Shown here piece after piece: positions 24,103 through 44,358 of a DNA stretch of 64,000 nt. The notes beneath the pieces were generated by a model. The model searched no databases. It had not been told where the DNA came from and saw nothing but the letters and a program-made list of their open reading frames with translations. The position numbers and the translations under genes were made by a program. The DNA comes from Prosthecomicrobium sp. N25 (GTDB lineage: Bacteria > Pseudomonadota > Alphaproteobacteria > Rhizobiales > Ancalomicrobiaceae), in assembly GCF_037203705.1 (NCBI RefSeq), contig NZ_JBBCAT010000001.1, positions 717,418-781,417 on the forward strand. Direction: 5' to 3'. The first letter of the stretch is position 1. Each line of letters begins with the position of its first letter.

Positions 24103-24114
24103 AGGAGGATCAAC

Positions 24115-24459
24115 ATGACCATTGGTTCCCGTCTCGATCGCCGCTTCTGGCTCGTCTCCGAGGATGGCGTGAAGCTCTATCCGGTGCGCATCCGGAACCG
24201 ACTCACCGGCCGGTCGGCCTTCCGCATCTGCCCGGCTTCGACGAACATCACCTCGGAGCAGATAGAGGTCGACAACATCGATGAGGTCGAGCGCGCTGTC
24301 GTCGTGGAGGGGCACGGTATTCGGGTGGCACCGAACGAAGATGCCGCGGCCAATGTCCGTGCGCTCGGCGGCAGGATCCAGGGGGTCGGATACGTGGCAG
24401 ATTGGTCGGGACCACGCCACGCGCGAGCCGAACGCGAAACGGCGGCCGAAGAAGGATGA
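24115..24459 (+). CDS. Hypothetical partner of the WYL regulator
   Basis: 114 aa. The ATG follows AAAGGAGG at good spacing, 12 bases after the WYL stop, so the two are co-transcribed. The sequence (FWLVSEDGVKLYPVRIRNRLTGRSAFRI; EQIEVDNIDEVERAVVVEGHGIRV) looks like a compact β-rich cytoplasmic domain with no signal peptide or membrane segment and a charged C-terminal tail. No family recognised. The conserved-looking pairing suggests it modulates the regulator or belongs to the same DNA-maintenance or defence function. Confidence 0.75.
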   Translation: MTIGSRLDRRFWLVSEDGVKLYPVRIRNRLTGRSAFRICPASTNITSEQIEVDNIDEVERAVVVEGHGIRVAPNEDAAANVRALGGRIQGVGYVADWSGPRHARAERETAAEEG

Positions 24460-25050
24460 TAAATAGCTAATCCACCCGGCTAGGATCAAGACTTCATTCG
24501 AGGAATGCTTCGCGAGTGCAAGACTTATGATGATGGGCTGACTGTAAGCTGAAGGAGACTGACGGGAGAATTGATCACTATTCCCGATTGCTGGCTCCCG
24601 GCACCTCATGGCGGCTTCCGAGCCCGCCCGCCCGCCCGCCGGCGGCGAGGCCACCGATTCCCGTCGGACCCGGTCTGGGTCGCCGATATCGATGCGCGGG
24701 TGTTGCGAGCTGCGCAGACCCGGCGAACGGTCGGGCCATGGCGCACTTGCAAGCGAAATACCGAAAATCAAGTAAATCCTCCGGCGATCCGCCCTCTTGG
24801 CAGTCTCAATATCTCGCTGGTTGATCGAGCTGGCTGTCGACATAATCCGCAGGTTTTTCAGATCGACTTGGATCTGTCTTCCAATGCCGGTATGTTCTTG
24901 GTTGATGATTCTGGAGACGGGTAGAATTCTACAATCCAACCTTGTGCATCACGGCCCGGTCCATTCCCCCACACCGGCGCGTGTTCATTGGGGGAACTGG
25001 GTGGCCGGGCGCGCGGCGGCCTTTGCGGGGCCGTTCGGGCGCCCGGGAGT
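24460..25050 (+). other. Intergenic region, nothing recognised
   Basis: 591 bases between convergent genes. It holds a short GCCC tandem run near 24624-24643 and several short open frames without motif or Shine-Dalgarno. No terminator with a clear U-tract was seen. Confidence 0.5.
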
Positions 25051-25521
25051 TCAGCAGGGCCTGCCTGGATCGCAGCGGATCGCCAGGGAGGCGTTGACGT
25101 CATCGCGGGCGTCGTAGTCGGGTCGGGCGTCGTAGGCGGGTTCGCCGCAGCAGGCGAAGGCGCGACGGCTGTGGACGATCCAGTAGTGCCCGAGAGTGCC
25201 GCTGGCGAGCTGCGTCTTGGCGATCCGCTCATCGTCCTCCGTCCAGGCGACCGACTGCTTATCGCCGTTCTTCTGGACGAGCACCAGCGAGAAGCCGTCC
25301 GGCCCGCGTTCGATGCGCGCTACGCATTGCGTGCCGCGATCGAGAAGCGCGACCAGTCGGGCGGGATACTCCTTCGCCAGGGCGGCCTTCTTGGCCCTCA
25401 AGGCGGCAGGAATGCGCGGATCGTCGGTACAAAAGTCGGGACCGCAACTGCATGCGGCCGCAACCGGTTGCATCGATGCGACCAGCAGCATGAGACTTGC
25501 CAAGGACCTGATCATGGTCAT
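25051..25521 (-). CDS. Secreted Cys-rich hypothetical protein
   Basis: 156 aa. A signal peptide (MTMIRSLASLMLLVASMQPVAAA) leads into CSCGPDFCTDDPRIPAALRAKK; later come KQSVAWTEDDERIAKTQLASGTLGHYWIV and RRAFACCGEP, with about eight Cys in the mature part. No family recognised. A GGAGG-type Shine-Dalgarno precedes the start. It lies 9 bases downstream of another small secreted protein, so the two are probably one transcript, and both follow the giant gene pair at 26-40 kb in the same direction. Confidence 0.72.
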   Translation of the reverse strand: MTMIRSLASLMLLVASMQPVAAACSCGPDFCTDDPRIPAALRAKKAALAKEYPARLVALLDRGTQCVARIERGPDGFSLVLVQKNGDKQSVAWTEDDERIAKTQLASGTLGHYWIVHSRRAFACCGEPAYDARPDYDARDDVNASLAIRCDPGRPC

Positions 25522-25530
25522 ACCTCCTGT

Positions 25531-25908
25531 TCAGACCACCTTTTTACAGAGTTCGTTGCCGACCTGGACCGGGCCGGCGAACAATTTGAAGCAAACCGTC
25601 GTCGGATCGGCGATCCGGACGTCCAGCGTTATCTCGATGCTGCCGATCTTCTGCTTGAAGCTTGTATTTTGGAGCGTCTTGAACGGCGTTGCCAGAGGGA
25701 CTTCGAAGAGCCCGGTGTCGATCGTGGCGACCAGCGTGCCGCTGACCCACCCCTGATCTATCTTGACGTCCGTGATGTCGAACCGGCTCTCCACGCGCGT
25801 CACCCGCCCGTCCTCCTGCCAGGGGCGGAGCGGCAGGGGCAAGGCGGTCGCCTGCGCGATAAGAAGGGCGAGCATGGCAATCGTAGCGGTTAATCGGCGT
25901 ACCATCAT
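25531..25908 (-). CDS. Small secreted hypothetical protein
   Basis: 125 aa from MMVRRLTATIAMLALLIAQATALPLPL, a clear signal peptide preceded by GGGAGG; the longer open frame to 26073 is not supported. The mature part (VTRVESRFDITDVKIDQGWVSGTLVATIDT; GSIEITLDVRIADPTTVCFKLF) alternates hydrophobic and polar residues as in a β-sandwich and has two Cys. No known family. It begins 118 bases after the stop of the 1808-aa gene on the same strand and could be an accessory part of that system. Confidence 0.75.
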   Translation of the reverse strand: MMVRRLTATIAMLALLIAQATALPLPLRPWQEDGRVTRVESRFDITDVKIDQGWVSGTLVATIDTGLFEVPLATPFKTLQNTSFKQKIGSIEITLDVRIADPTTVCFKLFAGPVQVGNELCKKVV

Positions 25909-26026
25909 GAAATCCTCCCAATCGATAATGGCCGGAGCGCACGCGTCCGGTTTCGCCCCCTTCGGGGTGCGAACGGAAAATCTGGCGGGCCGCTTGCGGC
26001 CCCTCATTGGCCCCTCGCCGCCACCC

Positions 26027-29000
26027 CTATCGGGGCGGCCCCGGGGGGACTGCAATCTCCAGCTCCGCCACAAAGCGCGGACCGGCTTCGCGGCGCAGAT
26101 CGAGTTCGGGCGGTGGGGCGCCGCCGCCGGTGTCGGGCACGGGCTCGACGGGGTAGCGGGCGGGGCGCCAGCTCTCGTGTTCGTCGGCCTGCACGAAGTA
26201 GCGGGCGCCGGGTCGCGCGGGCTCGGGGGGCAGCGTCAGGGTCGCCGTCCAGACACCGGTCTGGTCACCCGCACCGTCGCACTCGATGAGCGTGTCGATC
26301 ATCGGCAGTCCGGCCGGGGAGGTCTCACGCCGCACCAAGCGAAACCGGGCTGTGGGGCGCGGGCGGTCGTCCACGGCGCCGAAAGCGGGGGCGCGGCCGC
26401 CGAATGAGGCCTTGACGGCGCGCACGCCCGCGCACTCGGTCAGTTCGGCCGCCAAGATCCGCTCCGGCGCCACGATGCCCCAGGCGACGGCGGGCTCGGA
26501 GACGCGGAGATCCTTCGGCAGGGCCGGGTTGTAGCGGACGACGCCGAAGCGCACGAACGGATCGGCCATCGGCTGGCGGGCCAGCGTCACGTCCACGTAC
26601 CAATGCTCCTCGGCCACATCGAAGCGCGGCTCGTGGAGCACAAGCGCGGCGCGGAAGGCGGCGTCGCGCGGCGCGGCTTTGGGGCCTTTCGGCAACGGTA
26701 TGTCGACGCTGCGCACAATCCGGCTCTCGTCCACCCGGCCGCCCAGAAGGAGGTCGGGGAAGTCGGCCGGGGTCGGCAGGATGGCGCGCACCGCTGAGGC
26801 AGGGGGCCGGACCGGATCGGCGCCGATGCGGGTCACGAAAGCGCCGCCCGGTCCGATGTCGGCGTCGAAAAGTTCGGCGAGCGCCACCCGCTCGTCCAGG
26901 TGGCGGCGCGGCACCGTGTCCGCCGGCGGCAGCGGGGCGCCCGCGGCGGCGCCGAACAGGTCTGGCGGCCACACGACGATGCCGATCCGCTCGTGGGTGC
27001 CCGAGACCTTGAACGGCCGGGCGAGCGGGATGCGGATCGAGGCGCGGCGGCCCGTCGACCAGCGGCCGAGCAGCCGTGTGCCCGCCGGCCGCGGCCCATG
27101 CGCCGCCGGGGCATCCCCCTCGCCCGCTGTCCAGCCGAACACAGGGTAGCTCGATTGCGGGGCCGGCGCCGGCGGGCGCTCCAGGCCGGGCAGATCGAGG
27201 TCGACCACGAACGCGGCCGGCTTGTCGAAAACGTCGCGTAGGCCCGGGTCGGGCGCGCTTTGCAGGCGGTCGGGCAGCGGCGTCTCGGCGACGAACCGGC
27301 CGTTCACCAGCCTGGGCCGCGTGCGCATCAGGGGCGCGTGGCGGGAGATCGCGAGAGCCACGAGCCGCACCTCGCGGGACGCGAGGTCGGGGAACCGGTG
27401 CGGCAGGGCCACCCGCGCCGGACGCAGCACCTCCGGCAGATCGCACAGATCGAAGCGGGCCGCGGCCGCGATCGCCTCCGTGGTGGGGGCATCCGGGGCC
27501 CCTCCGGCAACGATGGCCTTCAGGTGGGCGGCATGCAGGTCGATGCGGGTCAGCCCGCTGACCTGGGACACGAACGCCGGCAGCTCCGAGATGCGCATCA
27601 GCGTCACCCACGAGCGTGGAAGGCTCACGCGATCGTAGCGATCCACCTCGAAGCCGAAGAGCTTGGAGGCCTTCAGGGGTTTCGGCTCGTGCCGCTCCGC
27701 CGGGAACGCCTCGTCGAACAGGCCGACGCGCTCCCCCGGCAGGCTCGGCCACGCCCCGTCGATGCGGTCGGCCCGCTCGCGCCGGCGGGCGGGATCGTCG
27801 AACTTGCCCGAATGGGGCGAGGCGCAGTACGCGCGGATCTCCAGCGAGGCCGTGGTGGCGAGGTCCACCTCCACCGAGCCGCCGAGCAGGTAGGTGGCGC
27901 TGGTCGGGTCCTCGAGCGGTCGGGTCACGAAGCCGTTCCGGTAGGCCTGCAAGGCCGCCTCGGGCGGCTCGCTCTCCGCGGTGGCGCGCACCAGCTTCAA
28001 GAGTTCTTCACAGGTGAGCGCGGCGCGGATCAGCCGCACCGGCAGGCGCCGGGCGGCGGGCTCGATCGGCTCCCGGGCGATCTTCGGTGCGGCCAGCGGG
28101 CGGTTCACCGCATGCGTGAGGCGCAGCCGGGCGGAGGAGACGAGGTCGGCCAACGGGCGATCGAGGAGCCCGGCGCGGATCGCCTCGGCGGTGCGCAGGC
28201 GGGCGGCCTGGTCGGGCAGCAGGGCCCCCGTGAAGCCCGCCAGCATCGGGCCGGTGCCGGGCTTCGCGGACGTGCGCTCCGCCTCCAGCACGGCGACGCT
28301 CTCCACCGCGGCGAACCAGCTTTCCAGCATGCCGGCGGTCGGCACGCACCAGGCGACCAACTCCACGTCCTCGCCGGGGGCGAGCGCCACCGTGACGGCC
28401 CGCACGGCCGCGGCCGCTCCAACCGGGCGGCGATCACGCAGGCGTTCGCGCTCGTCCAGCCAGACGGTCGGCCACGCGCCGACGCGGTCGAGCGGATAGG
28501 TCGGCCGCAACAGGCGGGCCTCCTCCCCGCAGGCGCAGGGGTCGCGCTGCTCCACGTCGACCACCACCGGCAGAACGTCCGGGTAGGTCACCGAAACCTT
28601 GCCCCGGTAGAGCGGCACGACGAGCGGCGGCGCCAGCCACGTCGCATCGGGCCCCGGCCGCTTCAGGGCGATCACCATCGCGTGGGCCGCGGGATCCGGG
28701 TAGTAGGGGCCGAGCTTATGGTCGGCGCCGGCCATGACATCGAACACCGCGTCTCCGGACGGGTCGACCGGATTGCCGGGCTCGATGCGTCCTTTCGGGT
28801 CGACCACCTTCACGCGTTCGACCACCTGCGCCCCGGCGACCTCGCGCATCAGCCGGCGGGCGACCGGGAAGCCGCCGCCTTGCACAGAATAGCGCACTCC
28901 GTCGAGGCCATCGGGGGCGCGGTCGCGGTCGTGGTGGCGGTCGAGCACGCCGTGCAGCAGGGCCTGGGTCAGCGGCACGGCGGGGGCGACGAGCACGCGG

Positions 29001-31453
29001 CGCGCCCGCACCGGCACCGCGATGTCGTCGCGGCCCATGTCCTTCGGCAGGCCGTCGGTGGTATCGAGACTGCGCAGCACCACGTCACGCGCGGTTTGCA
29101 GCTCCATCTGCCCGCTCGGGCCCCCCTCGACCGTCTCGATCGCGGCGGGCGGCATGGTGATCGTCGGTGCCGCGATGCGCTCGTGGCGCAGGAAACGGCG
29201 CGCCGGCAGGCTCTTCGGGCTTGGCTTTGTGCTCCCGGCAGGCTGCGGCACTGTGAGGCGGCCGCCGAAGGCCGTCTCGTAGCGCCTGGCCGCCTCGGCG
29301 GTCGCCATCGCGATACCGCCCACATAGACGGCCCGCATGCCGAACCGGTAGGCAGCCCCGAACCGGAGCCGCGGCGGGCGTGGATCGGACGGGGAGGATG
29401 GCAGATCATAGCGGCGGCTGATCGGCACCTGCCCGTCCAGGTCTGGCGACCGGCAGGCCGCCGCCCCCTCGAGCGCCGCCGGCACGGTGCCGTCCTGGCA
29501 TTCGAGCCCGATCGGATCGCCCGACCACAGCGCCACGAGTTCCTCGCAGAACAGGTTCACTTCCTGATTGTCGCCGGCTTTGCGGGTGACCTCCCGGGCC
29601 GCCATGGAGAGAATGGCGGCGTCCAGCTCCGAGCGGGACAGGTCCGGCGCGTTCGGGACGATCCTGGACAGCGCGGCTTCCAGCCAGCCGGGCCGGAGGG
29701 CGTTCCAGGGATCGATGTAGTCGACCTTGCGGTTCATCAGACTGCGCCACTGCGGCAGCGCCCCGCCGGACCCATAGGCGCCCACGTCGACGCGGTAGCC
29801 GATGGTCAGCTCGTCCGCATCGAAGCGCAGATCGCACGGGTTGGACGGCTGCCGGTCCGCGGCGGCGAGCTGGTCGACGACATGGACGTGGCGCATGCGG
29901 TCGATCAGGGCGAGGCCGGCGGTGCGCATCTCCGGCCCCGCCTCGTCGTCGAAGCCGGATCCCGGGGGAAGGGCGCAGCCGGCGGCTACGGCGGCGAGGT
30001 CGGGCTGGGTCGCCTTTCCGTGCTGAAGGTCGTCTTCGGCGCGCACCGCCTTGGCTAGCTCCTGGTGTATGCCGGCCTGCATCGCCGAGACCACGTCGAG
30101 CGAGGAGACCGCGTAGCGCGCGCCCTCGAAGCCGGGTGCCGCCCCGGGGTCGAGCGCCTGCCCGAGCACCACGCAGCCTTCGAACTGCGATACCTCGGTG
30201 AGCGCATCGCCGGCACAGACGGCCTCGAATTCCTCGCGTTGCGCCGGCAGGAAGACGCCGTCGCCGATCGCGTCAGGGCCCGTGTCGAGCCGCAGTTTCG
30301 AGAGCGTCCACAGTCGGGGCGTCAGAGACGAACCATCGAGCGACGACACGCAGACGTCGACGAACTGGTCCGCGCCGCTTACCAGATCCGCCGGCACCTC
30401 GAACTCGACATCGACCACGAGGCCGAACAGGCGCGCCAGGACGGGCATGGTCTGCAGCCCGTAGAGCCGCGCCCCGGCGGCCTGGCGCGCCGCATCGGAA
30501 GAAGGCACATCTGTCGAGCGCGTGGAAGCGGCGATCTCGGTTTCGTGCGCCCGCGCGATCATCTCTTCGGTCGACGGCTTCGGGGGCACGCTCTTGCCGG
30601 CGCCGTCCGCTGCCGGCGGCCGGCACCCGGGGTCGGCCTTGCCGGGTGGGCTCGACTTCGCGGCATAGCGCTCGGCCGCGTAGGTCTGGATGTCCGGCAG
30701 CACAGCGGCGACGCCCGCCGCTCCCCCGTTTGCCAAGTCGCCGAATGTCTTGCCCTTGAGTTGATCGAGGCCCGGGCGCTTCAACTCGGCGGCATCGGGC
30801 GACGCGGCATCCCGCTGAGCGGCCGTGAGACGGGCAGCGGCGGCGATCCGGTCGGCACGCCGGCGCTCGTACACATAGGCGGCGGCGTTGCGGCCGCTCG
30901 GATAGACACCGGTCACCACGCGTGGACGCGGCGCTTCCGGAGCCGCCGGTGCGGCGCCGGTCGGGTCCGGCTGGCCGGTGCAGGTGATCCGGGTGGTCTG
31001 GTCGGCGGACTGCCTCGGCAGGGCCTCGACGATCTTGTCCCAGCCGAGGCCCCCGTGCCCCATCACGGCGCGCCAGAGATGATCGATGTCGGGGCTGTAC
31101 GGATTGGCACCGCGCTTCAGCTCGATCGTGACGTGGTGGCCACCGTCCGCTCCGCAGCCCACGCGGAACTCGTCGTCGTTCGGGCTCGGCGAGGGGAGCA
31201 GGGACAGCGTCAGCTTGCGCAGGGAGCGGATCGCGTCCGGCCAGCGGGCGATCTCCACCTTGCCCCGTCCCGCTTGCGCCTCCGCAACCGGCGTGAGCAC
31301 CAGCGCGGCGCGCAGCCAGCTCTTGCCGTTCTTCTTCCGGAAGAGGCCGGCCGGGACCACCTTGGCGAGGATGTCGACCCGGGGGGAGGGGGGCAGGATG
31401 GCTTCGAGGGTGGTGACCTCGCCGCTCTTGGGCGGTTCGACGAGCTTGTTCAT
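26027..31453 (-). CDS. Giant protein of unknown function (1808 aa), second gene of the giant pair
   Basis: Starts at MNKLVEPPKSGEV; its ATG overlaps the stop of the preceding giant gene (TGATG), so translation is coupled. There is no signal peptide or membrane segment. The sequence is rich in Pro, Arg, Ala and Asp, and predicted largely β with loops. Recognisable landmarks, none diagnostic, are GGHHVTIELKRGANPYSPDIDHLWRAV-like text near 105, QRDPCACGEEARLLRP near 970, LVAWCVPTAGMLESWF near 1035, and HWYVDVTLARQPMADPFVRFGVVRYNP near 1630, which reads like a repeat-free β-domain. No enzyme motif was found. It may be a cytoplasmic or partner-exported structural protein that assembles with the Tat-signal protein. 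It is certainly coding: 5.4 kb uninterrupted, with coding-like composition and an operon overlap. Confidence 0.8.
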   Translation of the reverse strand: MNKLVEPPKSGEVTTLEAILPPSPRVDILAKVVPAGLFRKKNGKSWLRAALVLTPVAEAQAGRGKVEIARWPDAIRSLRKLTLSLLPSPSPNDDEFRVGCGADGGHHVTIELKRGANPYSPDIDHLWRAVMGHGGLGWDKIVEALPRQSADQTTRITCTGQPDPTGAAPAAPEAPRPRVVTGVYPSGRNAAAYVYERRRADRIAAAARLTAAQRDAASPDAAELKRPGLDQLKGKTFGDLANGGAAGVAAVLPDIQTYAAERYAAKSSPPGKADPGCRPPAADGAGKSVPPKPSTEEMIARAHETEIAASTRSTDVPSSDAARQAAGARLYGLQTMPVLARLFGLVVDVEFEVPADLVSGADQFVDVCVSSLDGSSLTPRLWTLSKLRLDTGPDAIGDGVFLPAQREEFEAVCAGDALTEVSQFEGCVVLGQALDPGAAPGFEGARYAVSSLDVVSAMQAGIHQELAKAVRAEDDLQHGKATQPDLAAVAAGCALPPGSGFDDEAGPEMRTAGLALIDRMRHVHVVDQLAAADRQPSNPCDLRFDADELTIGYRVDVGAYGSGGALPQWRSLMNRKVDYIDPWNALRPGWLEAALSRIVPNAPDLSRSELDAAILSMAAREVTRKAGDNQEVNLFCEELVALWSGDPIGLECQDGTVPAALEGAAACRSPDLDGQVPISRRYDLPSSPSDPRPPRLRFGAAYRFGMRAVYVGGIAMATAEAARRYETAFGGRLTVPQPAGSTKPSPKSLPARRFLRHERIAAPTITMPPAAIETVEGGPSGQMELQTARDVVLRSLDTTDGLPKDMGRDDIAVPVRARRVLVAPAVPLTQALLHGVLDRHHDRDRAPDGLDGVRYSVQGGGFPVARRLMREVAGAQVVERVKVVDPKGRIEPGNPVDPSGDAVFDVMAGADHKLGPYYPDPAAHAMVIALKRPGPDATWLAPPLVVPLYRGKVSVTYPDVLPVVVDVEQRDPCACGEEARLLRPTYPLDRVGAWPTVWLDERERLRDRRPVGAAAAVRAVTVALAPGEDVELVAWCVPTAGMLESWFAAVESVAVLEAERTSAKPGTGPMLAGFTGALLPDQAARLRTAEAIRAGLLDRPLADLVSSARLRLTHAVNRPLAAPKIAREPIEPAARRLPVRLIRAALTCEELLKLVRATAESEPPEAALQAYRNGFVTRPLEDPTSATYLLGGSVEVDLATTASLEIRAYCASPHSGKFDDPARRRERADRIDGAWPSLPGERVGLFDEAFPAERHEPKPLKASKLFGFEVDRYDRVSLPRSWVTLMRISELPAFVSQVSGLTRIDLHAAHLKAIVAGGAPDAPTTEAIAAAARFDLCDLPEVLRPARVALPHRFPDLASREVRLVALAISRHAPLMRTRPRLVNGRFVAETPLPDRLQSAPDPGLRDVFDKPAAFVVDLDLPGLERPPAPAPQSSYPVFGWTAGEGDAPAAHGPRPAGTRLLGRWSTGRRASIRIPLARPFKVSGTHERIGIVVWPPDLFGAAAGAPLPPADTVPRRHLDERVALAELFDADIGPGGAFVTRIGADPVRPPASAVRAILPTPADFPDLLLGGRVDESRIVRSVDIPLPKGPKAAPRDAAFRAALVLHEPRFDVAEEHWYVDVTLARQPMADPFVRFGVVRYNPALPKDLRVSEPAVAWGIVAPERILAAELTECAGVRAVKASFGGRAPAFGAVDDRPRPTARFRLVRRETSPAGLPMIDTLIECDGAGDQTGVWTATLTLPPEPARPGARYFVQADEHESWRPARYPVEPVPDTGGGAPPPELDLRREAGPRFVAELEIAVPPGPPR

Positions 31454-34400
31454 CAGTCGATCGTCCCGATGGGTTGGCCGAGAGAGGCATCGAAGTAGCG
31501 GGCGTAGGTCGCGAAGTTCTTGGCGGGCGAGACGGCGGCGTTGACGAGCCGGCACCGGGCCGTCGTCGTCTCGCCTCGCGGCATCGGACCGGCCAGCTGG
31601 ATTTGGTCGCCGGCGGGCAAACTGGCCCTATCGCCGCCGCCGCTGAAGTTCTGGCCCTCGGAGCGTTCCACCGAGACCGAGAACTTGAACTTGGCGAAGC
31701 CGATCGAGAACGCGTACGAGAAGGTGGCGATGCCGAACATGCCCTGGCCCCGGCTGCCGATCATGACCGACAGGGCCGCCGCCACGGAGAAGATCCACAC
31801 CGAGGCCGAGCCGCCACAGAAGAACGTGCCGTAAATCTCGGTCTGGTTGACGTACTGGTCCGGATTATTTGCGCTCGGCACTCTGTATTTGCGGATGTAG
31901 AAGCCCGACATGACCCGGCCGACGCCGGTCAGCGGCCCGTACGTGTAGGCTGCCATGCCGCCGAATTCGAAAGCGGCTTCGAATTCGACGATCCGGCTCG
32001 AGTCCGCCGTGAGGCTGAAGAAGCCGCCGCCGCCGTAGGGCGCGTAGCTGATCAGGAATGGATCCCGGCGGGTGCCGAGCGAGATCTTGAACAGGGCCTC
32101 GCGGTTCGAGAACGGCAGCTCGATCGAGGTGTAGAGATTGATGTTGAGGAACGTGACGTTGCCGAGCGAGAAGCCGCCGAGATCGAGCTTGTAGCCGGCT
32201 TCGATGCCGGGCGCGCCGGACAGCGGCCTGAGGAAGAAGCCCGACCCCGCCTTGGGTGTCAGGATCGACTGCAAGCCTTGCAGAAAGGCGAGCTTGTCGC
32301 CGATCTCGAAGTCGCGATAGCGCACCTTGAACTCGGGCGATGCGCCGCGGTCCACCGTGCAGGTGGCGCCGTCAAACATGAGCCGCACCGCGTTGAAATC
32401 CGGCAAGAGTAGAATATCGAACGCCCCGACCTTCGCCTCCGCACTGGCATTCGAGCGGCTCGGCTCGAGCAGGTCCACGACGGTGCGCGTCCGGATCGTC
32501 AGCCGCGCACCCTTGGCGGGCTGGAAGACATTGACCTCCTTCATCGGCACGTCGAAGTCGTACGAAAGCGTCGCGCTGGTCGGCACCAGATACTTGATCT
32601 GCTCTTCGATCCTCTGCTTCAGCCCCTGCAGATCCACCAGCCCCGAGATATCACCCCGCAACAACCGCGATGCCGTGTCGAAGACCCGCTTCAGCAGCGT
32701 CACCGGCTTCGACAATTGAAGGTAGGGCGTCACATCCTCCGCCGGGGTGGCGGCCAGCACGGCGAGCACGTCCGCGCCCGGCTTGGAGAGGTCGTCCCAG
32801 AACTTGGTCTCGGCCGCAAGCTTGTCTTCCTTGAGGGATTTGGAGGGCTCCGGTGGGTCTACGAGAAGCTGATCGGTTTGCAGTGCTACGCGCAGATACG
32901 GATCGGACACGATCCTGTCGTAGGCGATGTTCCGCTTGGCCAATATGGCGTCATGGGCCGCTGCAATGGGCCCTGCGATGGCACGGAGGGCGGCGGCGGC
33001 CGGGGTGGAAACCGACGCCGGCACGAGCAGATGCGACAGTGTCTTCGCCAATGCGTCGGTTTGGGTGCTAACCGCCATGGCGAGCTTGCCGGGCGCCGAT
33101 CCGAGGCCGTCGAAGGCGTCGGAGAGTTGCTGCAGCCGTTCCTTGTAGCCCTTCGCGGGCTTCTCTAAGGCCAGGATGGCGGCCGTGATCTGCGGGGCCG
33201 GGTTCACTGAACGGACGGCCGCCACCCACGCATTGAGATCAGTCACCAAAGCCGCGATGTCGGGCCGCGCCGCAGCCTCCATGCTACCGAGGGCGGCGTT
33301 AAGGTCGGCGATCGCTTCGTCCACATGGCGGATCGCCTCGTCCCGGAGGGCCAGCACAGCGACCTGCTGGGCATCTCGGAGCAGACCCAGGAACTCGGCC
33401 ACGCAGGCTTCCACGAAGACGAGTGGGTCCGGCGCCAGGACGAGGCCCCTCCATTGTTCGAACAGTCCCCTCGCCGTCGCGGCGATCTCGGCGAACCGGT
33501 CGAGTGCGGAGCGGGCACGCGGCAGGATGCGCGCCATCGCGTCGACCAGCGTCAAGAGGTCGCCAGGCCCCGTGCAGCCGACGTTCGACAGGGTCTTGGC
33601 CAGGCGCGTTGCGTCGGCGAGGTCGGCGGCGAGCGCCGCCCCGGTCGTCTGGACCAGCTCGGCATAGGCGTTGAGCACCGGTATGGCGGGGGTGCCGGCG
33701 AGATCCACCTTGGCGGTGTCGATCGCCTTGAGGACCCGGTGGACCGCCGCGGCAAGCCGCGGGCCGGCCGTCTCGTCCGGGCGGATCAGGGCCGCGAGCG
33801 CCAGGCGAAGCTTGTCGATGGCCGGGCAGGCTTTGGCGACGAGCCCGCTGACGGCCCTGTCGGCATAGGCGCCCACCAACAGCCGGGCCCTTTCCTCCGC
33901 GAACGCACCCAACACCTTCACGACGCCGTCGGGCGTCAGCTTGCCGGCGAGATCCTGGATCTTCTCTGCGAGCTGGATGACCTCGCCGAGCGCCGGATCG
34001 GCCAGCAGGCCCTGCAAGGTCTCCTGCGTGATCTCCGCGGCGGCCTTCGTATAGGCCCTCAATTCGCGCTCGAAGCGCCGCCTTTCGTCCCCGACCGCTT
34101 TCTTCCCCAGCGCCTCGAGGTCCTTCACGTTGATCGGCAGCGAGTCGCGATAGGCCTTGACCATTCCCGCCAGGGTGCCTTCGCTGCGGGCCGCCTTGAC
34201 CGCCGTGGCGTGCGCCTGCTCGAGCAACGTGCGCAAGTCCCGATCGATATCGGTATAGATGGCCGCAAAGGCCGGCAGGGGCGCCACGAAGCGCTCGGGC
34301 ACCGTGTCGGCCACCGTCCGCAGGGCACCGATGAGCGCCGCGGTCACCTGCGTGCCGAGCGCCTTGAGGGCCTCCTTGACCTCCTTCACCAGATTGGCCG

Positions 34401-37400
34401 TGAACGTGTTCAGGGTTTGCGTGAGGTCCGCGAGGAGCGTCCCCGATACCTGGCGTGCGGCCCGGTCGAGGGCGGCCAGCGGATCGTCCGCAAAGGACTC
34501 GATCGTGGCGAGCAGGCCGCGTGCGGCATCGTGGACCGCCGACACAGCGGCGGCGACGCGGATCACGTCCGCTGCGGCAATCGCCTGTGCGAGTGCCAGA
34601 GACAGCCGTTCCAGCGCCGTGCCGACTTCCGGATAGAGCTCTGAGATCGAGATCGAATTGCGCGGCCCGCTCCCGGCGCCGACGTCGAGTTCGGCCGACT
34701 TCCAGGTCCGTTCGGCCTCGGCCACGACCTGCTGCAGCGGCACCAGCACGCCCCGGCGCAACACCTCGAGGGCGTTCTCGGCTTCGGACGCCACGCCGAA
34801 GCCGAGCGTCTCGACGAGCCGCGGGACCTGGTCTCCTGCGGGGTCCAGCAGGCCGGCAATCAGCTTCTTCAGCGAGACCAGGCCGAGCAGCTTGTAGTCG
34901 TCGCCGAAAATGAGGTCGTGCACGCTGTCCGCCGAGGGAGCGGCCGGGACGGCGGCGACGTCGGAGGCGCCCGCCTGGGCGAAGCGCACCGGCCGGCGGG
35001 CCGTGGGCATTCGGGCGTTCGTGTAGCGCCGGGCGAGCGCCGGAATGGTGCGGATGTGCGGCTCCTGGGCCAGGCCGAAGACCGCATCCTTCAGGTAGCC
35101 GCGGTTCGGATCACTGCCGCCCATCGGCCCGTTCAGCCGCGACAGAACGAAAACATACGAGTCCGGCCGGGCCAGGGCGCCGGCCCGGTCGCCCTGGTCG
35201 CCCATGGCGAGGCGGAACGTCTCCGCCACGTCGAGATAGATTTCGGGCGTCCCGGACCCGCCGGGGGGAGTCTTCGGGAAGCCGTCGCGCAGATAGTCCC
35301 CGTCGAAGCGCACGGTGGCGGCAGGGGCGGGGCGACCTGTGAAGCGCTCGACCTGAGAGATCTGGATCTGGGCTTCCACGAGCCGCGGATAGAAGGGCGG
35401 CTGGTCGGCACCCACCATCAGCGACGTGGGAGCGTAGAGATCGTTGACGCCCACGAAGCCGTCGTCGGTGAGCGCTTCGTCCGTGACCTTGGCGACCACC
35501 TGTTCCGGCGTCTGCCGCACGGTCCCGTGGACGCCGAGGAGCCAGTAGTTGGTCTTGAAGCTGGTGTCCCCGGACTTGCGCGCCTCGGCGTAGCGCCGGA
35601 CCGCGCCACCGTGCTGGACGCGGCGGAAATCCTTGGGGCCGCCGAAGCGGTCCGGCAGGACTTTGGCAGCGTTCTCGTAGAAATGCGCCACCGCCGCCAT
35701 GACGACCGGGTCGCCGGCCGCCACGTTGTCGACGAACAGGAGCGGCACCGACACCCGCCCGGCCTCGCCGGGCACGTCCAGCTCGAAGGCGAACGGTGCC
35801 TCCAGGATGCCCGTCTTCGGCCAGAACACCAGGCCGGTGCTGAGCTTGCCCCTGGCGAAGATCCGGGCGCGCTCGTTGAGTATCCACGGCGGTACGGGAG
35901 TGACGTCGGGCCGCTCGAGCGGGACGTCGGACGCGCTCATCATCGGGTCGATGATGTCCGGTGTGCGGGTTGTCAGGATGCGGAGCGCGCTCGGCGGCCA
36001 CTGGCGCCCGCCGATCGGCTGTCCGACCGCCGGATAGCGCTTTTCCGGCACGCTCACCTTGATGAACATGCGCTGGATCAGCACGGCCGAAACCGGCCCG
36101 CCCGGCCGCGGCGTGACGAACTGGCGCTCGGTCAGCTTGACCAGGCTCGCCCGGTGGCCGAGCGGGAACAGGAAGCCCTTGTAGACCACTTCGACCGTGA
36201 TATCCCGCCCGAGCAGCGTGGTCTGCCGCCAGCGCTCGATACTGAAGCTGTCGAACAGCGGCCGCTGGCCGTCACGGCTGTCGAGGAGCCGGGCCGCGTA
36301 GGGAGGCGAAAAGCTGGTGTCGAGCACGATCGAGCCGCCGAGCGCCGAAAGGCTTAGTTCCGACCAGTCCAGCGCACGCGGGCGGTAGATGGCGCTTTCG
36401 GCCTCGACGTCGTTCAGCTCGAAGCCGGGTGGCGGCTCGAACTGGTCGCCGGCCGGATCCAGCTTGCCGTCCTCACCGCGCCGGCCGATCACCGGCAGGC
36501 CGTATACGGAACTCGCTGCGACCAGTTCGTGACGGTCATACGCATCGAGCGGCAGGCGGTACGGTGGCGGCTCCGCCGCTCTGCCCCACACTTGCAGAAA
36601 CCGCTTCCAGAACGGGATCTTGATTGGCTGGGCGCTGTCCGGCCTCCAGTGCCGTCCGTCGGAATCGAGCGGCCCGAGCGTCCACGGCGGCACCGGCCCA
36701 CGCGGCGGCGACGTCAGCCCGGGCAGGCGCTCGCCATTCTGCGGCACCAGATCGCGCGATGCGGCAAGGAACACGCCGGGGCGGAAATCCGGCGAGGCCA
36801 CCGCGCGCAGCCGCGCATCCGGGCCGGTGCGATCGAGCCGAGCGCGCCACAGCGGCACCGGCCGGGGCGACTCGCACGGCCCCCTGGCCTCGTCGTAGAT
36901 CGCCTCGGGCACCCGCTCCGGGGTGATAAAGGTTGCGTCTTGGGCGGGCGACAGCTCGAGCCGGCTCGGCAGTTCGATGGCGGTTTCCAGGTCGTTCGGC
37001 GCCAGCCCGGCCAGCCGGTAGATGTCCGCGAGCCGTTGATGAGCCGAGCCGAAGCCGTCGCCGCCGAGCCCCTGGAAGCGCAGGATCTCGCCGACATCCT
37101 GCACCTCCCGCCGGTCGTGTCGACCCGGCTTGCGGCCGTCGTCGTAGCGCTCGAACAGCTTCTCGGCCCGGCGCACCACCGACAGGTCGAACCGCTGCCA
37201 GTCCGTCAGGGCGTCGAAATCGAACGCGACGGCGGCCTCCCCGTGACGGCGCTCCATCTCGGCCATGTCGACCCGGAAGGCCAGCCGGGTGCGCCCGGAC
37301 AGCCGCGCCGGCGCCGGCAGATCGATCTGTTCGCCGCCCTCCGCCAGGAGCTTGCCGAACGAGGTGATCGCGGCCTCGATCGCCGCCGTGTACCCCGCCG

Positions 37401-39822
37401 CGTCGAGTTTCACCTTCGCCGCGTAGTTGGACGCGTCCGGGGCGGGTGACACGAACTCCTGGCTCGCGAACAGCGTCGCGGCCGTCCCGGTCGCGCCGCC
37501 GCCGCCGCTGGCGCGGAAATGCTCGCGCAACATGCCGTACATCGGATCCCGGGTCGCCTTGGCGCGCTCGCGGGCGATCACCTTTGCGAGGAATTCCGGA
37601 TCGTTGACGTTGTCGGGCTCGTGTGCACCGAGTGCCTCAATGCGCTCGCGCAAGAGCTTGGTGGCGCGGTCGGCCCCGATCGCCTTCTGGGTGAGGCGCG
37701 CCACCACGGCCTCGTCGGGATCCATTTCCTCCGGGCCGATATAGACGGCGAGTTCCGGCGACAAGAGTCGCGGCCCCAGCGCCGGGGCGGCGATCTCGCC
37801 GAAGCGCTTCGCGAACTCCGCGAAGGTCGTGAGGCCGTCCAGCCTTTCGGTGTCGATCTTGAGCACCTGGCGCGCCAGGCGCGCGCACCGGCGCGCCTCG
37901 GGCGTCTCCGGCCGGATCTTGTCCAGGAATGCGCCGTCCGCGCCGCTCTGCTCCCCCTCGATCAGTACCTGAGGCAACTCGACATCCTGCCGAAAATAGG
38001 CGCGCTCGGCCAGATGCTGGGGCGGGAACTCCACCACCAGGATCGGCTTGGTCCCGTCGGCGGCCTCCGCGAAGCGGCGCGGCGCGGGCGGGCCGTCCGG
38101 CGTCCGCCCGTCCGCCTTCCCCTCGGCCTTGTTGCGCACCCAGTCGGCATGGGTCTTCTGGAAGGCGAGGTCTTCGGGCGAAACCTGCGGCCGGCGGTCG
38201 GCGATGCGGCCGGGCGACTGCACCACGCGTGTCCGCCCCTCTCCCGCCACGATATCGAGCGCGTGAAAACGGAATACCAGCGCGGCCAGGTCCGAGGCCC
38301 GCGAGGCCCGCAGGCGCGCCGTATCGAGCGGCAGGCGCAACCGATGAGATGCGAGCTTGGGTGGCACGCCCCCGGCGTCGTCGAGCCGCACCCACCCGGC
38401 CGTGCCCAGGTCGCGCGGGTCCGCCGCGCCGTAGACGAAGCGGCAGGGTTCGCCGTCGAAATCGAGGCGCGAATAGGTGGCGTTGGCGAGCGCGATCGAC
38501 GCCGATGTCACCAGGAACGGCGCATCGAAAAGCTCCAGCCGGTCGTCCAGCGCGCGCGCCACCATGGGCGGGCGGAGCCGCGGGCGATCCTCCGTGGCAC
38601 GGCCGACCGCGTAATGCGGGCGGATCGAGAACCGGCCGAGCGCGGTCTGAAGGCGCCGATCGGAGTCCCGATCCTCGGCCGCCCGCCCGCCGACCGTCGG
38701 GCGCCAGCCGGGCACGGCCATGAAGGTGGTGGCCAGCCCCTTGGCGCTGCGCCGCCGTTCGACCACGCCGTAGGCCGCGCCGAAATGGCTCTCGACCCCG
38801 CCGGCCTCGAAGGTTGTGCGCTCCAGGCCGGCCAGCAGGGCCGCGGGCGGCCGATTGTCCGTGTAGCTTTCGGCCGCGAACCAGACGGACCCGCCCGAGG
38901 CGATCACGCGCGCGCCGCGCGGGCCCCCGAGCCGCACCTCGGCCGGTCCGACGTCCGGGGTTTCGGCCACCACGGCGGCGAAGATCGGGCTCGTCCGCCC
39001 CGCATCGGCCCGCGCCGCCCCGACCTGATCGCCCGGCCGCGGCTCGATCACCGGCCCCGGCACCGTGCTCTCGGCCTGCGCGCCGTAGATCCGGCGAAGT
39101 TGCTCGGACGGGGCGGTTTCCGGGCGCACCCAGGCCATGCGGAGCGCGCCGAGCTTCATCTCGCCGAAGGCGGCGAACCGGTCGTTCTTGTGCTTCGGCC
39201 GAACCGTCCACGTGCCATCCTTGTCGATGGCGATGCAGGCGCGCCCGGCGGGCCTGATCACGCCGTCGAACACGCGATCGAAGAACCGCCCGAGTTCCGC
39301 TGCGCTCGCCTCGAATTCGAAGTTTGGGAAAGTCTCCGGCTTCAGTGCGGCGCGCCCGCGCTCCGCGAAAGTCGAGCAGGAGAACTCGGCCGTCCATCCT
39401 TGCTTGGCACGATAGAGCTCGACTGCGACGCGCTGGTCGTCGAGCCGGCCGAACGCCGCGGGCACGACCTCCAGCCGGTGGGCCGCCCCGTTGAGGCTGT
39501 AGACGATCCCGGCCCGCGGCCCGAACGCGCGCGCCTCCAGGGTGAGCACCGGGAAGACGCGGGTGGTGCGCACCTCCGCGCCGTTCTTCGTCGAGATCTC
39601 GACCCAACGCAGCGACGCGATCGCTACCGTCGGACTCTGGCGGTTCGGGAAAAATTCCACAGTCAGCTCGGCCTTGTCGGGCGCGATGATGGGCGCGGCG
39701 GCTGCCGCGATGGTCAGCCCCGGGGCGGCGACCGAGCCACCGAGGCCAGCCAGCAGGCTGCGGCGATCCAGCACCGCGGCGCGGGCAATTGCGCCGATCG
39801 GGTCGAAGCGAAAGAAAGTCAT
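31453..39822 (-). CDS. Giant Tat-signal protein of unknown function (2789 aa)
   Basis: From MTFFRFDPIGAIARAAV. Residues 18-45 read LDRRSLLAGLGGSVAAPGLT followed by an Ala-rich stretch, a good twin-arginine signal, implying export of a folded protein. Residues ~50-1640 are mixed β/loop regions without a known motif. About 1640-2405 is a long Ala/Leu-rich helical region resembling a coiled or tape-measure-like segment (VIRVAAAVSAVHDAARGLL; LTQTLNTFTANLVKEVKEAL). About 2410-2789 is a Gly/Phe/Ser-rich β domain (LGGFSLGNVTFLNINLYTSIEL; YAPYGGGGFFSLTADSS; FKFSVSVERSEG). No family recognised. It overlaps the 1808-aa gene by TGATG. Few bacterial Tat substrates approach this size. Coding status is secure; function unknown. 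Confidence 0.83.
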   Translation of the reverse strand: MTFFRFDPIGAIARAAVLDRRSLLAGLGGSVAAPGLTIAAAAAPIIAPDKAELTVEFFPNRQSPTVAIASLRWVEISTKNGAEVRTTRVFPVLTLEARAFGPRAGIVYSLNGAAHRLEVVPAAFGRLDDQRVAVELYRAKQGWTAEFSCSTFAERGRAALKPETFPNFEFEASAAELGRFFDRVFDGVIRPAGRACIAIDKDGTWTVRPKHKNDRFAAFGEMKLGALRMAWVRPETAPSEQLRRIYGAQAESTVPGPVIEPRPGDQVGAARADAGRTSPIFAAVVAETPDVGPAEVRLGGPRGARVIASGGSVWFAAESYTDNRPPAALLAGLERTTFEAGGVESHFGAAYGVVERRRSAKGLATTFMAVPGWRPTVGGRAAEDRDSDRRLQTALGRFSIRPHYAVGRATEDRPRLRPPMVARALDDRLELFDAPFLVTSASIALANATYSRLDFDGEPCRFVYGAADPRDLGTAGWVRLDDAGGVPPKLASHRLRLPLDTARLRASRASDLAALVFRFHALDIVAGEGRTRVVQSPGRIADRRPQVSPEDLAFQKTHADWVRNKAEGKADGRTPDGPPAPRRFAEAADGTKPILVVEFPPQHLAERAYFRQDVELPQVLIEGEQSGADGAFLDKIRPETPEARRCARLARQVLKIDTERLDGLTTFAEFAKRFGEIAAPALGPRLLSPELAVYIGPEEMDPDEAVVARLTQKAIGADRATKLLRERIEALGAHEPDNVNDPEFLAKVIARERAKATRDPMYGMLREHFRASGGGGATGTAATLFASQEFVSPAPDASNYAAKVKLDAAGYTAAIEAAITSFGKLLAEGGEQIDLPAPARLSGRTRLAFRVDMAEMERRHGEAAVAFDFDALTDWQRFDLSVVRRAEKLFERYDDGRKPGRHDRREVQDVGEILRFQGLGGDGFGSAHQRLADIYRLAGLAPNDLETAIELPSRLELSPAQDATFITPERVPEAIYDEARGPCESPRPVPLWRARLDRTGPDARLRAVASPDFRPGVFLAASRDLVPQNGERLPGLTSPPRGPVPPWTLGPLDSDGRHWRPDSAQPIKIPFWKRFLQVWGRAAEPPPYRLPLDAYDRHELVAASSVYGLPVIGRRGEDGKLDPAGDQFEPPPGFELNDVEAESAIYRPRALDWSELSLSALGGSIVLDTSFSPPYAARLLDSRDGQRPLFDSFSIERWRQTTLLGRDITVEVVYKGFLFPLGHRASLVKLTERQFVTPRPGGPVSAVLIQRMFIKVSVPEKRYPAVGQPIGGRQWPPSALRILTTRTPDIIDPMMSASDVPLERPDVTPVPPWILNERARIFARGKLSTGLVFWPKTGILEAPFAFELDVPGEAGRVSVPLLFVDNVAAGDPVVMAAVAHFYENAAKVLPDRFGGPKDFRRVQHGGAVRRYAEARKSGDTSFKTNYWLLGVHGTVRQTPEQVVAKVTDEALTDDGFVGVNDLYAPTSLMVGADQPPFYPRLVEAQIQISQVERFTGRPAPAATVRFDGDYLRDGFPKTPPGGSGTPEIYLDVAETFRLAMGDQGDRAGALARPDSYVFVLSRLNGPMGGSDPNRGYLKDAVFGLAQEPHIRTIPALARRYTNARMPTARRPVRFAQAGASDVAAVPAAPSADSVHDLIFGDDYKLLGLVSLKKLIAGLLDPAGDQVPRLVETLGFGVASEAENALEVLRRGVLVPLQQVVAEAERTWKSAELDVGAGSGPRNSISISELYPEVGTALERLSLALAQAIAAADVIRVAAAVSAVHDAARGLLATIESFADDPLAALDRAARQVSGTLLADLTQTLNTFTANLVKEVKEALKALGTQVTAALIGALRTVADTVPERFVAPLPAFAAIYTDIDRDLRTLLEQAHATAVKAARSEGTLAGMVKAYRDSLPINVKDLEALGKKAVGDERRRFERELRAYTKAAAEITQETLQGLLADPALGEVIQLAEKIQDLAGKLTPDGVVKVLGAFAEERARLLVGAYADRAVSGLVAKACPAIDKLRLALAALIRPDETAGPRLAAAVHRVLKAIDTAKVDLAGTPAIPVLNAYAELVQTTGAALAADLADATRLAKTLSNVGCTGPGDLLTLVDAMARILPRARSALDRFAEIAATARGLFEQWRGLVLAPDPLVFVEACVAEFLGLLRDAQQVAVLALRDEAIRHVDEAIADLNAALGSMEAAARPDIAALVTDLNAWVAAVRSVNPAPQITAAILALEKPAKGYKERLQQLSDAFDGLGSAPGKLAMAVSTQTDALAKTLSHLLVPASVSTPAAAALRAIAGPIAAAHDAILAKRNIAYDRIVSDPYLRVALQTDQLLVDPPEPSKSLKEDKLAAETKFWDDLSKPGADVLAVLAATPAEDVTPYLQLSKPVTLLKRVFDTASRLLRGDISGLVDLQGLKQRIEEQIKYLVPTSATLSYDFDVPMKEVNVFQPAKGARLTIRTRTVVDLLEPSRSNASAEAKVGAFDILLLPDFNAVRLMFDGATCTVDRGASPEFKVRYRDFEIGDKLAFLQGLQSILTPKAGSGFFLRPLSGAPGIEAGYKLDLGGFSLGNVTFLNINLYTSIELPFSNREALFKISLGTRRDPFLISYAPYGGGGFFSLTADSSRIVEFEAAFEFGGMAAYTYGPLTGVGRVMSGFYIRKYRVPSANNPDQYVNQTEIYGTFFCGGSASVWIFSVAAALSVMIGSRGQGMFGIATFSYAFSIGFAKFKFSVSVERSEGQNFSGGGDRASLPAGDQIQLAGPMPRGETTTARCRLVNAAVSPAKNFATYARYFDASLGQPIGTID

Positions 39823-40501
39823 GGCATGACACTCCCGGCCCAACGTCGAGCGCAGGGGCAGTGAGGATACGGACGAATATCGCGCAAGACGAGACGCACC
39901 CTGCAGCGCAAAATGATCACACGCGCGGCGGTTTCGTCAGTATTCGCGGCGACTCTAGTCGTGGAGGGTGAGGAGGTAGGTGGATCGCGTCAAATCGAAT
40001 GATGAAAATATAATCATAGCGCTCCTCCATACTTAACAAAAAAGTTCCACCGAACCGACAGCATCGGCCCTCAAGGGGTGGTCTATTCAATGTGTCGGGC
40101 AATCTCGCGATGACGATTTCGGCTCTATTGGCTGCACTTTCTCATCGGAGAAGGCCTGAGAACTTCTTTAATATCAATGTGCCGAGGATACACGAGCTCC
40201 TGCACTTGGCAAGGTCTTTTTTGCGACCCTGCGCACCCATTCTCCCCCGGCACAACTGCCGTGCTGGACCTTCTTCTCTCAACGGCCAAAGCCGGCACGG
40301 GTCGGCTCAATCCGAGTTATATAGTTTAAAAGCTCTTCAGAAAAAAAATTCCATTGGCGAGGTTAGTGCTGGCGCTGAGTTGAGTTACGTTCCTGACTAT
40401 GGGTTGCTGCGTGAGTAACGCCCAATGACATGCGCCATGAACACGGCCTTGGCAACGATGACTTCGTGCGTCCCCGCAACCTTCCCAATCGCGCACGAGT
40501 A
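39823..40501 (+). other. Intergenic region upstream of the giant operon, nothing recognised
   Basis: 679 bases, markedly more AT-rich from about 39990 onward. It should contain the promoter of the giant gene pair on the minus strand. A 108-codon open frame on + (40092-40418) has no Shine-Dalgarno, signal or motif and is not called. Confidence 0.5.
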
Positions 40502-41115
40502 TTCACAAAGCCTGTGCTTCGAAGAAGAGCTTCAGGACGAAGGACGACCGCGGGCCGGACGATCCGCCGACGCCTCGGGGCCGCAATGCGGAGGTCGACC
40601 ATCGCAGCGAGAAGCGCTCGCACGGGACGCATTGCTCGACAACCAATCCCGATGCCCCGGCTTTACGACCCGGTCCTGGTCAGGAGGCCAAGGTCAGCTA
40701 TCTCGGCCGCGGTTGATGGTGAACCGCTCCGGGTTGCTGGTCGACGCCTGGGTTGCGCGTGTCTCAGGCCATGCCGAGCGCGTCGCCGCTGGCCACGTCG
40801 AGGCCCATGCCGACCGACCTCGCTCCTCGGCGCCGACCGTGGTTACCATGCGGCCGACATCGTGAACGGACTCAGGTCCATGAACGTTCGGCCGCTGCCG
40901 CCCAGAACCTCACCGCCGCATGGGTCGCTGGCGATAGACGGCCGCACCACGCGCCACGTCGGCTGTGCCGTCAACCAGCGGATCCGTAGGCCCAATGAGG
41001 ACAGCTTCGCCTGGAAATAAGATCATAGCCAGACTGGAACGACCCATGGTCCGCGGCGTCGGTAGGGCTTCCACCTTCGCCGCCGCGGCCTACAACTTGG
41101 TCCGGTTGCAATAAT
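40502..41115 (+). pseudogene. Degraded IS5-type transposase remnant
   Basis: Three reading frames together rebuild the C-terminal two thirds of an IS5/IS1182-like DDE transposase: KKSFRTKDDRGPDDPP, then RNAEVDHRSEKRSHGTHCSTT and GPGQEAKVSYLG in one frame; LMVNRSGLLVDAW and SGHAERVAAGHVEAHADRP in a second; LGADRGYHAADIVNGLRSMNV, AIDGRTTRHVGCAVNQRIRR and FAAAAYNLVRLQ in the others. At least two frameshifts and internal stops separate them, and the N-terminus is missing. Terminal inverted repeats could not be placed. It lies just outside the island's left direct repeat. Confidence 0.8.
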
Positions 41116-41493
41116 TCAACGCGGAGACGGCAAAGCGGACGTCTGCCGCCACGTCGCGGCAGTTGCAAACCGTTCTACTGGGGCCCCACGCCAGTCGGAT
41201 CGGGACCAAGCGCACGCGGCCGAGTCCGGAACCTTTATCCCGTTGCCCGCGAACAGCAATCGGGAAATCGTTGGTGCCCAGGAGAGGACTGGCACGACCC
41301 TACTGTGATCTATTGAAAAATATAGGCTTTTCGAGCGTCTCTGAGCCGCATGTGTACCAGTTCGGTGCCCCGGTCGCAACCAAGATGGATTCGGCTCCGA
41401 GTGTGGGAATCATAGTGCCCAGCGTGATTTGTACTTCTTGTGCAATCCGAACACCTCTCGGAGGATGATCTCCGCCCATGAAGGAGGACCATC
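41116..41493 (+). other. Non-coding stretch containing the left attachment repeat
   Basis: 378 bases between the transposase remnant and the RidA-like pseudogene. The only supported element is the 19-bp repeat at 41272-41290. Composition changes here from the GC-rich chromosome to the less GC-rich island. Confidence 0.5.
41272..41290. repeat. Left 19-bp direct repeat (att-like), tRNA-Leu 3' end
   Basis: TGGTGCCCAGGAGAGGACT is identical to 55593-55611. Read on the minus strand it is AGTCCTCTCCTGGGCACCA, the T-arm edge, acceptor stem and CCA of an alphaproteobacterial tRNA-Leu. It marks the end of the island opposite the integrase. The rest of the tRNA is absent here. Confidence 0.85.
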
Positions 41494-41800
41494 ATGAAAC
41501 GGTCTATCGTCGAAGTGGACGGCGTCCCGCCATTAGCGTCACCGACAAGCAACGCAGTGGTGGTCGGCAATCAATGCTGGATCAGCGGGCAACTGTCCAT
41601 CGGTGACGATCGGGTCATTTGGCAGGTGCAGTGAGAGCGGAAGCTGAGCGCGCATTCCGACACGTATCTAGGATCGCGCAAGCGGCCGGATTCTCGCAAT
41701 CGACATTGTATATGTCGACCAAACGATTTGCGAATCCCTCCCGATTCCATCAGGTCGGGTTCCGCTCCAAATAGCGCTGGCCGGCCCGCGCCGGAGACGT
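41494..41800 (+). pseudogene. Broken RidA (YjgF)-family gene
   Basis: A strong AAGGAGG precedes the ATG at 41494. The first frame reads PPLASPTSNAVVVGNQCWIS and then GQLSIGDDR, the start of a RidA-type imine deaminase, but stops at 41632-41634. The family continues in another frame with RAEAERAFRHVSRIAQAAGF and in a third with IDIVYVDQTI and GRPAPETSSQT-like text, so at least two frameshifts disrupt it. The first fragment of 46 codons could still be translated but would not fold as RidA. The right-hand end is approximate. Confidence 0.7.
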
Positions 41801-41854
41801 CCTCGCAAACGTGCCACCGCGTCCTACCACGGGTTTCACAACTCAGGCAGATCC

Positions 41855-41889
41855 CGGAAGGCGTCGATCAGGGGACCAGGCGCCTTCCG
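41855..41889 (-). terminator. Hairpin downstream of the RTX gene
   Basis: A perfect 9-bp inverted repeat, CGGAAGGCG and CGCCTTCCG, with a 17-base loop lies 13 bases after the RTX stop codon. No T-run follows on the minus strand, so intrinsic termination is uncertain; it may instead protect the 3' end of the transcript. Confidence 0.4.
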
Positions 41890-41902
41890 TATCCAATTCC
41901 AA

Positions 41903-44128: not shown

Positions 44129-44292
44129 GATCATCCCCCCGCTTACTGCATAGCGTCAGAGTTCATCCTAGAGATCTCATTTATAGTTAATTTTAGCTGA
44201 TCCTTAACAATTTCATATTGGGCGAAACACTTATGAGATTACTGGCTAGCCTGGTATACCCAAACGACTCGCGTCGGCGAGACACTTTCCGC

Positions 44293-44358
44293 GTCTCATA
44301 TAGGTAGGACTGCGGAATCCGAGACGGCAATCTCTGAGGGTCGTAACCCATATGAGAC
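44293..44358. promoter_or_regulatory. Inverted repeat upstream of the resolvase gene, res-like site
   Basis: GTCTCATATAGG at 44293-44304 and CCCATATGAGAC at 44347-44358 are inverted copies differing at one position, with their centres 54 bases apart. They end 14 bases before the resolvase ATG. Serine resolvases bind paired half-sites in res sites located next to their gene, and this arrangement would also allow autorepression. Confidence 0.5.

Follow-up and report, generated by a model that had tools for sequence, protein, structure and literature searches.

What is made by two giant, overlapping genes that resemble no catalogued protein family, and how would products of such size leave the cell? 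The question is raised by a 64,000-nucleotide stretch of DNA from Prosthecomicrobium sp. N25, referred to here as the window. Gene A (31453..39822, minus strand) encodes a protein of 2789 aa (300.5 kDa) with an N-terminal twin-arginine signal. Gene B (26027..31453, minus strand) encodes a giant partner of 1808 aa (193.3 kDa) in which no signal peptide is seen, and the combined mass of A plus B is ~494 kDa. The start of gene A is an ATG; a TTG further upstream would extend the protein to 2796 aa. An initial annotation had described two uninterrupted giant frames, coding-like throughout and overlapping as TGATG, and its positions, the overlap, in which the TGA stop of A and the ATG start of B have one base in common, and the codon bias are all confirmed. 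The codon-position G+C bias is strong (position 3 minus position 2: 0.38 for A and 0.35 for B), homologues of A and of B are carried by other genera, and three close pairs of relatives give dN/dS values of 0.11-0.20 for A and 0.14-0.31 for B. Codon bias, homologues in other genera and dN/dS of 0.11-0.31 together establish A and B as real, selected genes.

The family is rare. Forty distinct loci were analysed, from proteobacteria, an acidobacterium and Streptomyces, several of them on plasmids; A matches 15 plasmid records and 32 loci in named genomes. Counting the window's own genome each time, A is found in 3 of 289 genomes of a class sample, in 7 of 398 genomes of a phylum sample (one of the seven, G572, matches with E 2e-5 over 27 positions, too weak to rely on) and in 1 of 21 near relatives. 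It is not present in the two other genomes of the same genus, and the flanking genes tried in an empty-site comparison with same-genus genomes are not conserved there.

Where A occurs, B follows. The two genes had been proposed to form a unit, and a check for homologues in which they never co-occur leaves this pairing intact: in 31 of the 32 named-genome loci A is immediately followed by B on its own strand, with an overlap or gap of -70 to +142 bases, and at the 32nd (L019) the contig ends 218 bases past A. Among plasmid A loci, B is present in 10 of the 11 fetched (of 15 matches). One plasmid locus (L008) is a broken A remnant with no B found, and three B remnants (L052, L053, L074) have no A in the fetched stretch. 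Five later genomes were found through the profile of the A C-terminus alone; four of them have B directly after A and four have an RR signal. One of these, G560, is a near copy of L020, so the later genomes amount to three independent confirmations. In the fifth later genome, G591, and in G168, which was found earlier, the A-like end is divergent and the second giant frame, which overlaps it, does not match B; no RR signal is found in the very divergent pair of G591, and in G168 the contig begins inside A and the signal is unreadable. The distances of A and B are congruent (r 0.905 and 0.895, 0 of 5000 permutations, 22 loci), and the A tree departs from that of the species: a Ruegeria plasmid falls together with the gammaproteobacterium Mangrovimicrobium, and L003 from Rhizobium sits next to L029 from Mesorhizobium, with DNA identities of 94% in A and 92% in B. 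A and B are thus a rare, horizontally moving two-gene family. The mobility, the short forms of A that lack a signal, the linked tatA genes and the adjoining hydrolases, all described below, are additions to the initial annotation.

Both proteins had been placed outside known families, and searches of Pfam, PHROGs, PADLOC and NCBIfam, and of PDB sequences with A and with the family profiles, bear this out. Pfam gave no significant match for A or B (best E 0.63, for A), NCBIfam nothing significant, PADLOC no match, and PHROGs nothing significant, the closest being one family of unknown function for B at E 0.018. Neither A against PDB sequences nor profiles of the A and B families against the PDB produced a significant match. 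When 28 B pieces and 10 A relatives were scanned with Pfam, the sole matches were a weak one to Poly_export in one member and one Tat signal. Plug, Microvir_H and Poly_export were rejected as the identity of the family; their weak matches occur in one or two members and do not recur. A phage link was likewise rejected, A being unmatched in 50,697 phage records and A patterns in viral contigs (A alone was searched). A giant repeat adhesin, RTX protein or two-partner-secretion exoprotein is not indicated: no such Pfam domain and no internal repeat is found. No description of the family was recognised in the literature searched, most subscription journals lying outside its scope. At the level of sequence, the A–B pair is unlike any catalogued family, undescribed and new.

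The anatomy of A can be outlined from the alignment of its homologues. The most conserved core (34843..37305, minus strand; residues ~840-1660) contains an EVVYKG[FY]LFPLGHRASLVK-type stretch. It is followed by an Ala/Leu-rich helical stretch (32653..34950, minus strand; residues ~1625-2390) and a C-terminal Gly/aromatic beta-like domain (31456..32652, minus strand; residues ~2391-2789), which ranks second in conservation within A. Ala and Leu make up 34% of residues 1625-2390, and the 100-residue blocks of 1701-2300 look helical by alignment-based periodicity, with 30-40% Ala+Leu per block. By the same measure, residues 2401-2789 show a strong periodicity of amphipathic strands, with Gly and aromatic residues. 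A long helical region followed by a Gly-rich beta C-terminus, as suggested at the outset, is therefore upheld at the level of composition and periodicity. In the alignment the helical stretch varies in length among homologues and is much shorter in the short forms of A, which fits the role of a spacer. Comparison of profiles of 400-residue pieces detected no internal repeats in A or B and no homology between A and B.

The Tat-type signal peptide of A (39691..39822, minus strand; end point approximate) has the arginine pair at residues 20-21, an Ala-rich h-region and an A-x-A-like end. An N-terminal S/T-R-R-x-F-L-like motif followed by a hydrophobic stretch and an A-x-A-like end is found in 36 of 43 A N-termini, a set that includes near duplicates (L025/L026, L021/L038, L041-L043), and in 83 of 8600 shuffled A N-termini (1%). 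The window's N-terminus is among the 36, its motif beginning DRR, not S/T-RR. Five of the seven exceptions (L006, L010, L011, L012, L016) are short forms of A without such a motif; in the other two (L007, L040) the RR motif is visible but there is an arginine in the hydrophobic part. The signal is conserved inside an N-terminal region that is otherwise poorly conserved. The RR-containing Tat-type signal reported for A is accordingly a conserved feature of its homologues, and the lack of a signal reported for B also stands: none of 28 B relatives passes the same rule, and inspection by eye shows no signal at the N-terminus of B proteins. As a prediction from sequence the twin-arginine signal of A is well supported; export of A would be its expected consequence. 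Since the signal is absent from the five short forms and from G591, such export would not be universal.

Extra tatA genes are linked to the pair. In S. meliloti pC an annotated tatA lies just after B, and with this TatA as query, TatA-like genes were found in six further distinct loci: Ensifer, Rhizobium, two Mesorhizobium, a gammaproteobacterium and an acidobacterium, the last a weak match (E 0.27 for the S. meliloti query alone, 0.0003 when the other sequences were combined in a profile). A candidate in L010 (E 0.56) is by eye not TatA-like and was discarded. Thus 7 of 40 distinct loci carry a tatA, in all seven within 1.3 kb of the pair; beyond 2 kb there is none in 524 kb (p 3e-5, with a cut chosen afterwards). 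A TatA query from a complete tatABC operon recovered five of the seven loci (all but L030 and L033), and tblastn with TatB and TatC from this operon gave no match in the pair loci. In the remaining 33 loci, the window included, no tatA was found near the pair. The S. meliloti TatA matches 9 of 72,556 plasmid records. Two of the nine adjoin the A–B pair. Three, in annotated records, belong to other settings: one to a denitrification region, one to a set of nos genes and one to a tatABC operon. For one more, the surrounding 30-kb stretch also includes tatB and tatC, and three records carry no annotation.

What the DNA itself shows is two paired and co-inherited genes, a conserved signal on A, tatA genes linked to the pair and the identity of other neighbours; the evidence leans, by a modest degree, towards a mobile, Tat-exported giant A–B complex in which B hitchhikes and the exported partners are interchangeable. 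According to this model, the mobile accessory unit would encode A and B as the two subunits of a single very large complex, located in the envelope or outside the cell. A would fold in the cytoplasm and bind B there; the twin-arginine signal would target A to the Tat translocase, and B, lacking a signal, would hitchhike across. The unit of some carriers is accompanied by an additional tatA, presumably an aid for so large a cargo. Once in the periplasm or beyond it, the complex would work with a separately made partner that varies by locus, often a protease or other hydrolase. The filament, scaffold or injection-like particle suggested in the initial annotation is a conjecture that goes beyond these observations.

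In Tat hitchhiking one subunit bears the RR signal and its partner is signal-less (PMC10924467; PMC4273604). The hitchhiker complexes described in these sources, formate dehydrogenases, Ni-Fe hydrogenases and PaoABC, share with A–B an RR subunit and a signal-less partner, and B is indeed encoded next to the signal-bearing A; unlike them, the A–B pair has no redox or cofactor domain that could be found, and it differs in size, with A alone at 300 kDa and A plus B at ~494 kDa. A review quotes Tat cargo of up to 150 kDa (PMC6708511), a quoted bound more than a strict definition, which the 300.5 kDa of A exceeds; if A–B really passes Tat, the cargo would be two to three times the size given in that review. 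Substrate-specific TatA paralogues are known (PMC4361764), and the same source describes an extra TatA tied to one cargo in the NosZ-specific TatE of P. stutzeri and the PhoD-specific TatAd of B. subtilis. The A–B loci resemble these in that 7 of the 40 have a tatA at most 1.3 kb from the pair; they differ in that the cargo would be an unrelated giant pair and that in most loci, the window's among them, no extra tatA was found. Should A–B pass Tat, the linked tatA genes would offer a natural system for how Tat adapts to size. A rare mobile family also gains a first outline of its parts, so that its job becomes testable in soil bacteria.

The genes around the pair bear on what the complex would do. 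Just downstream of B the window has two small genes, also read from the minus strand, with signals that look Sec-like by eye: gene D (25531..25908, minus strand; ATG at 25908 or 25905) and gene C (25051..25515, minus strand), the latter encoding a Cys-containing protein. The window has these two in place of the hydrolase gene seen at some other loci. The one relative of D lies downstream of B in Rhodopseudomonas (L023). Plasmids gave three matches to C: two adjoin an A–B pair (Ruegeria and S. meliloti plasmids) and the third a different giant pair in R. brockwellii. No third gene is constant beside the pair; C, D, M10, M35 and others occur in few loci each.

Among 20 hand-picked neighbour proteins scanned with Pfam, an M35 protease (L020), an M10 protease (L024) and a phage lysozyme (L021) are encoded within 0.1 kb of the pair and an astacin 0.45 kb from it (L047); apart from a patatin in L010, described below, the other scanned proteins have domains of unknown function or no Pfam match. 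M10 relatives are also near the pair in L025 and L031, exported HExxH proteins not assigned to a family in L032 and L039, and in L004 an annotated zinc-dependent phospholipase C-type gene and an M35 gene lie within 2 kb. Downstream of short-form pairs there are patatin-like frames: in R. ruizarguesonis (L010) a Pfam-matched patatin at 23969-26491, 0.8 kb away, and in Cupriavidus CH34 (L006) a patatin-like phospholipase recognised by eye from 27769 onward. In all, a hydrolase gene is within 2.5 kb in about 12 of the 40 distinct loci, counting an Ensifer M10, and many of the products have an export signal; the phage lysozyme of L021 and the patatin-like proteins have no clear one. Over 39 loci, and at the cut used first, four exported HExxH genes are within 1.5 kb of the pair (112 kb) and five beyond it (538 kb), and eight of the nine fall within 2.5 kb, a limit chosen afterwards. 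The plasmid distribution of these families is uneven. The M10 protein has a sole match in 72,556 plasmid records, beside a B remnant and tatA in Ensifer. Three of the plasmid regions inspected around M35 relatives lack a giant pair, and the lysozyme has relatives in 66 records, where the matches listed (15) are mostly from enterobacterial plasmids and one belongs to a type VI effector region; both observations speak against a dedicated link. For the families neighbouring the pair in L041 and L032, plasmids gave no match.

The neighbouring hydrolases favour antagonism or attack on polymers as the use of the complex, and this is the least certain step of the model. Its fullest form is doubtful: a mobile weapon or digestion machine, in which a half-megadalton complex folded in the cytoplasm would pass whole through Tat, with its own TatA in some carriers, and bring an interchangeable lytic partner (metalloproteases, lysozyme, others) to a target. 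The size and shape of A–B favour instead a surface structure, and the unit may make an adhesin, sheath or scaffold of the surface or matrix with the hydrolases as incidental residents of accessory regions. The long helical stretch and terminal beta domain of A would suit such a role, the partners vary, and at many loci a recognisable one is absent. Against it, A and B have no repeats and no adhesin or anchor domain that could be found, and on plasmids M10 (1 of 1 records) and C (3 of 3) occur only beside giant pairs or the B remnant. A structural unit of this kind is possible, on the less likely side.

The Tat-exported A–B complex has to be weighed next against an arrangement in which A alone is exported through Tat, with B staying in the cytoplasm to fold A beforehand as an assembly factor or proofreading chaperone, in the manner of the dedicated chaperones of redox Tat cargo. 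Known Tat-cargo chaperones are much smaller than B, which counts against such a role. B adjoins A, none of the 28 B N-termini has a Tat-type signal, and dedicated chaperones are described for Tat cargo (PMC6708511), all of which speak for this arrangement. B is kept, however, beside the signal-less short forms of A (L006, L010, L011, L012 and G113), so it is not needed for export alone, which argues against an export-only chaperone. The arrangement is unlikely.

That the RR motif is a chance occurrence or decoy, with A cytoplasmic or exported through Sec, is improbable. The short forms do lack the motif, and the NCBIfam Tat model TIGR01409, which at E up to 1 matches 9 of 39 A N-termini, does not match that of the window. 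The frequency of the motif among A N-termini compared with shuffles, in a region otherwise poorly conserved, and the linked tatA genes speak against chance. More improbable still is an anti-phage defence system of the envelope: the unit is mobile, sits in accessory regions, lies beside dpd genes in A. vitis (L005) and shares a stretch with restriction genes in L003, but no PADLOC model of a known defence system matched and no constant gene accompanies the pair.

Giant gene pairs of other kinds offer comparisons. Tc and eCIS toxin or injection systems also combine two giant polypeptides with smaller, varying neighbours, a likeness that is a lead only; no Tc toxin or contractile injection domain was found in A or B with Pfam, PHROGs, PADLOC and NCBIfam, a comparison made at the sequence level. 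In Apilactobacillus kunkeei, the giant extracellular proteins Giant1-5 are described as encoded one after another, their genes showing signs of exchange and of diverging together (PMC12863079). As described there they are lactobacillar, and Giant1-4 have beta-solenoids, whereas A and B are without repeats; the likeness is drawn from their description.

Several loci have features of their own. The R. brockwellii plasmid with the third relative of C (L054) carries at 3836-23331 an overlapping giant pair of 3953 and 2545 aa, dissimilar to A and B and divergent both to the C relative and to a membrane protein whose match to CHAP is below threshold. In G113 (L016/L017) a short-form pair without a Tat signal is beside type I exporter-like genes (HlyD-like, ABC) and a 966-aa repeat protein with RTX-like motifs, all recognised by eye. 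On the A. vitis plasmid (L005), B is split into two frames and the pair is located shortly before the dpd gene cluster.

In the window, a stretch of low G+C (52-59%) at 40000-56000 is beside the pair. It holds genes for an RTX protein with nine calcium-binding stretches (41903-44134), a resolvase (44352-44951), a Sel1-repeat protein (47749-48828) and an integrase (53899-55518). At 17600-23163 a helicase with RNase H-like and PD-(D/E)XK-like domains adjoins a 727-aa RmuC-like protein, for which two same-genus genomes gave just a 26% identical partial RmuC match. Two adjacent frames at 56281-57450 each match a different half of the sulphur-transport family PF04143.
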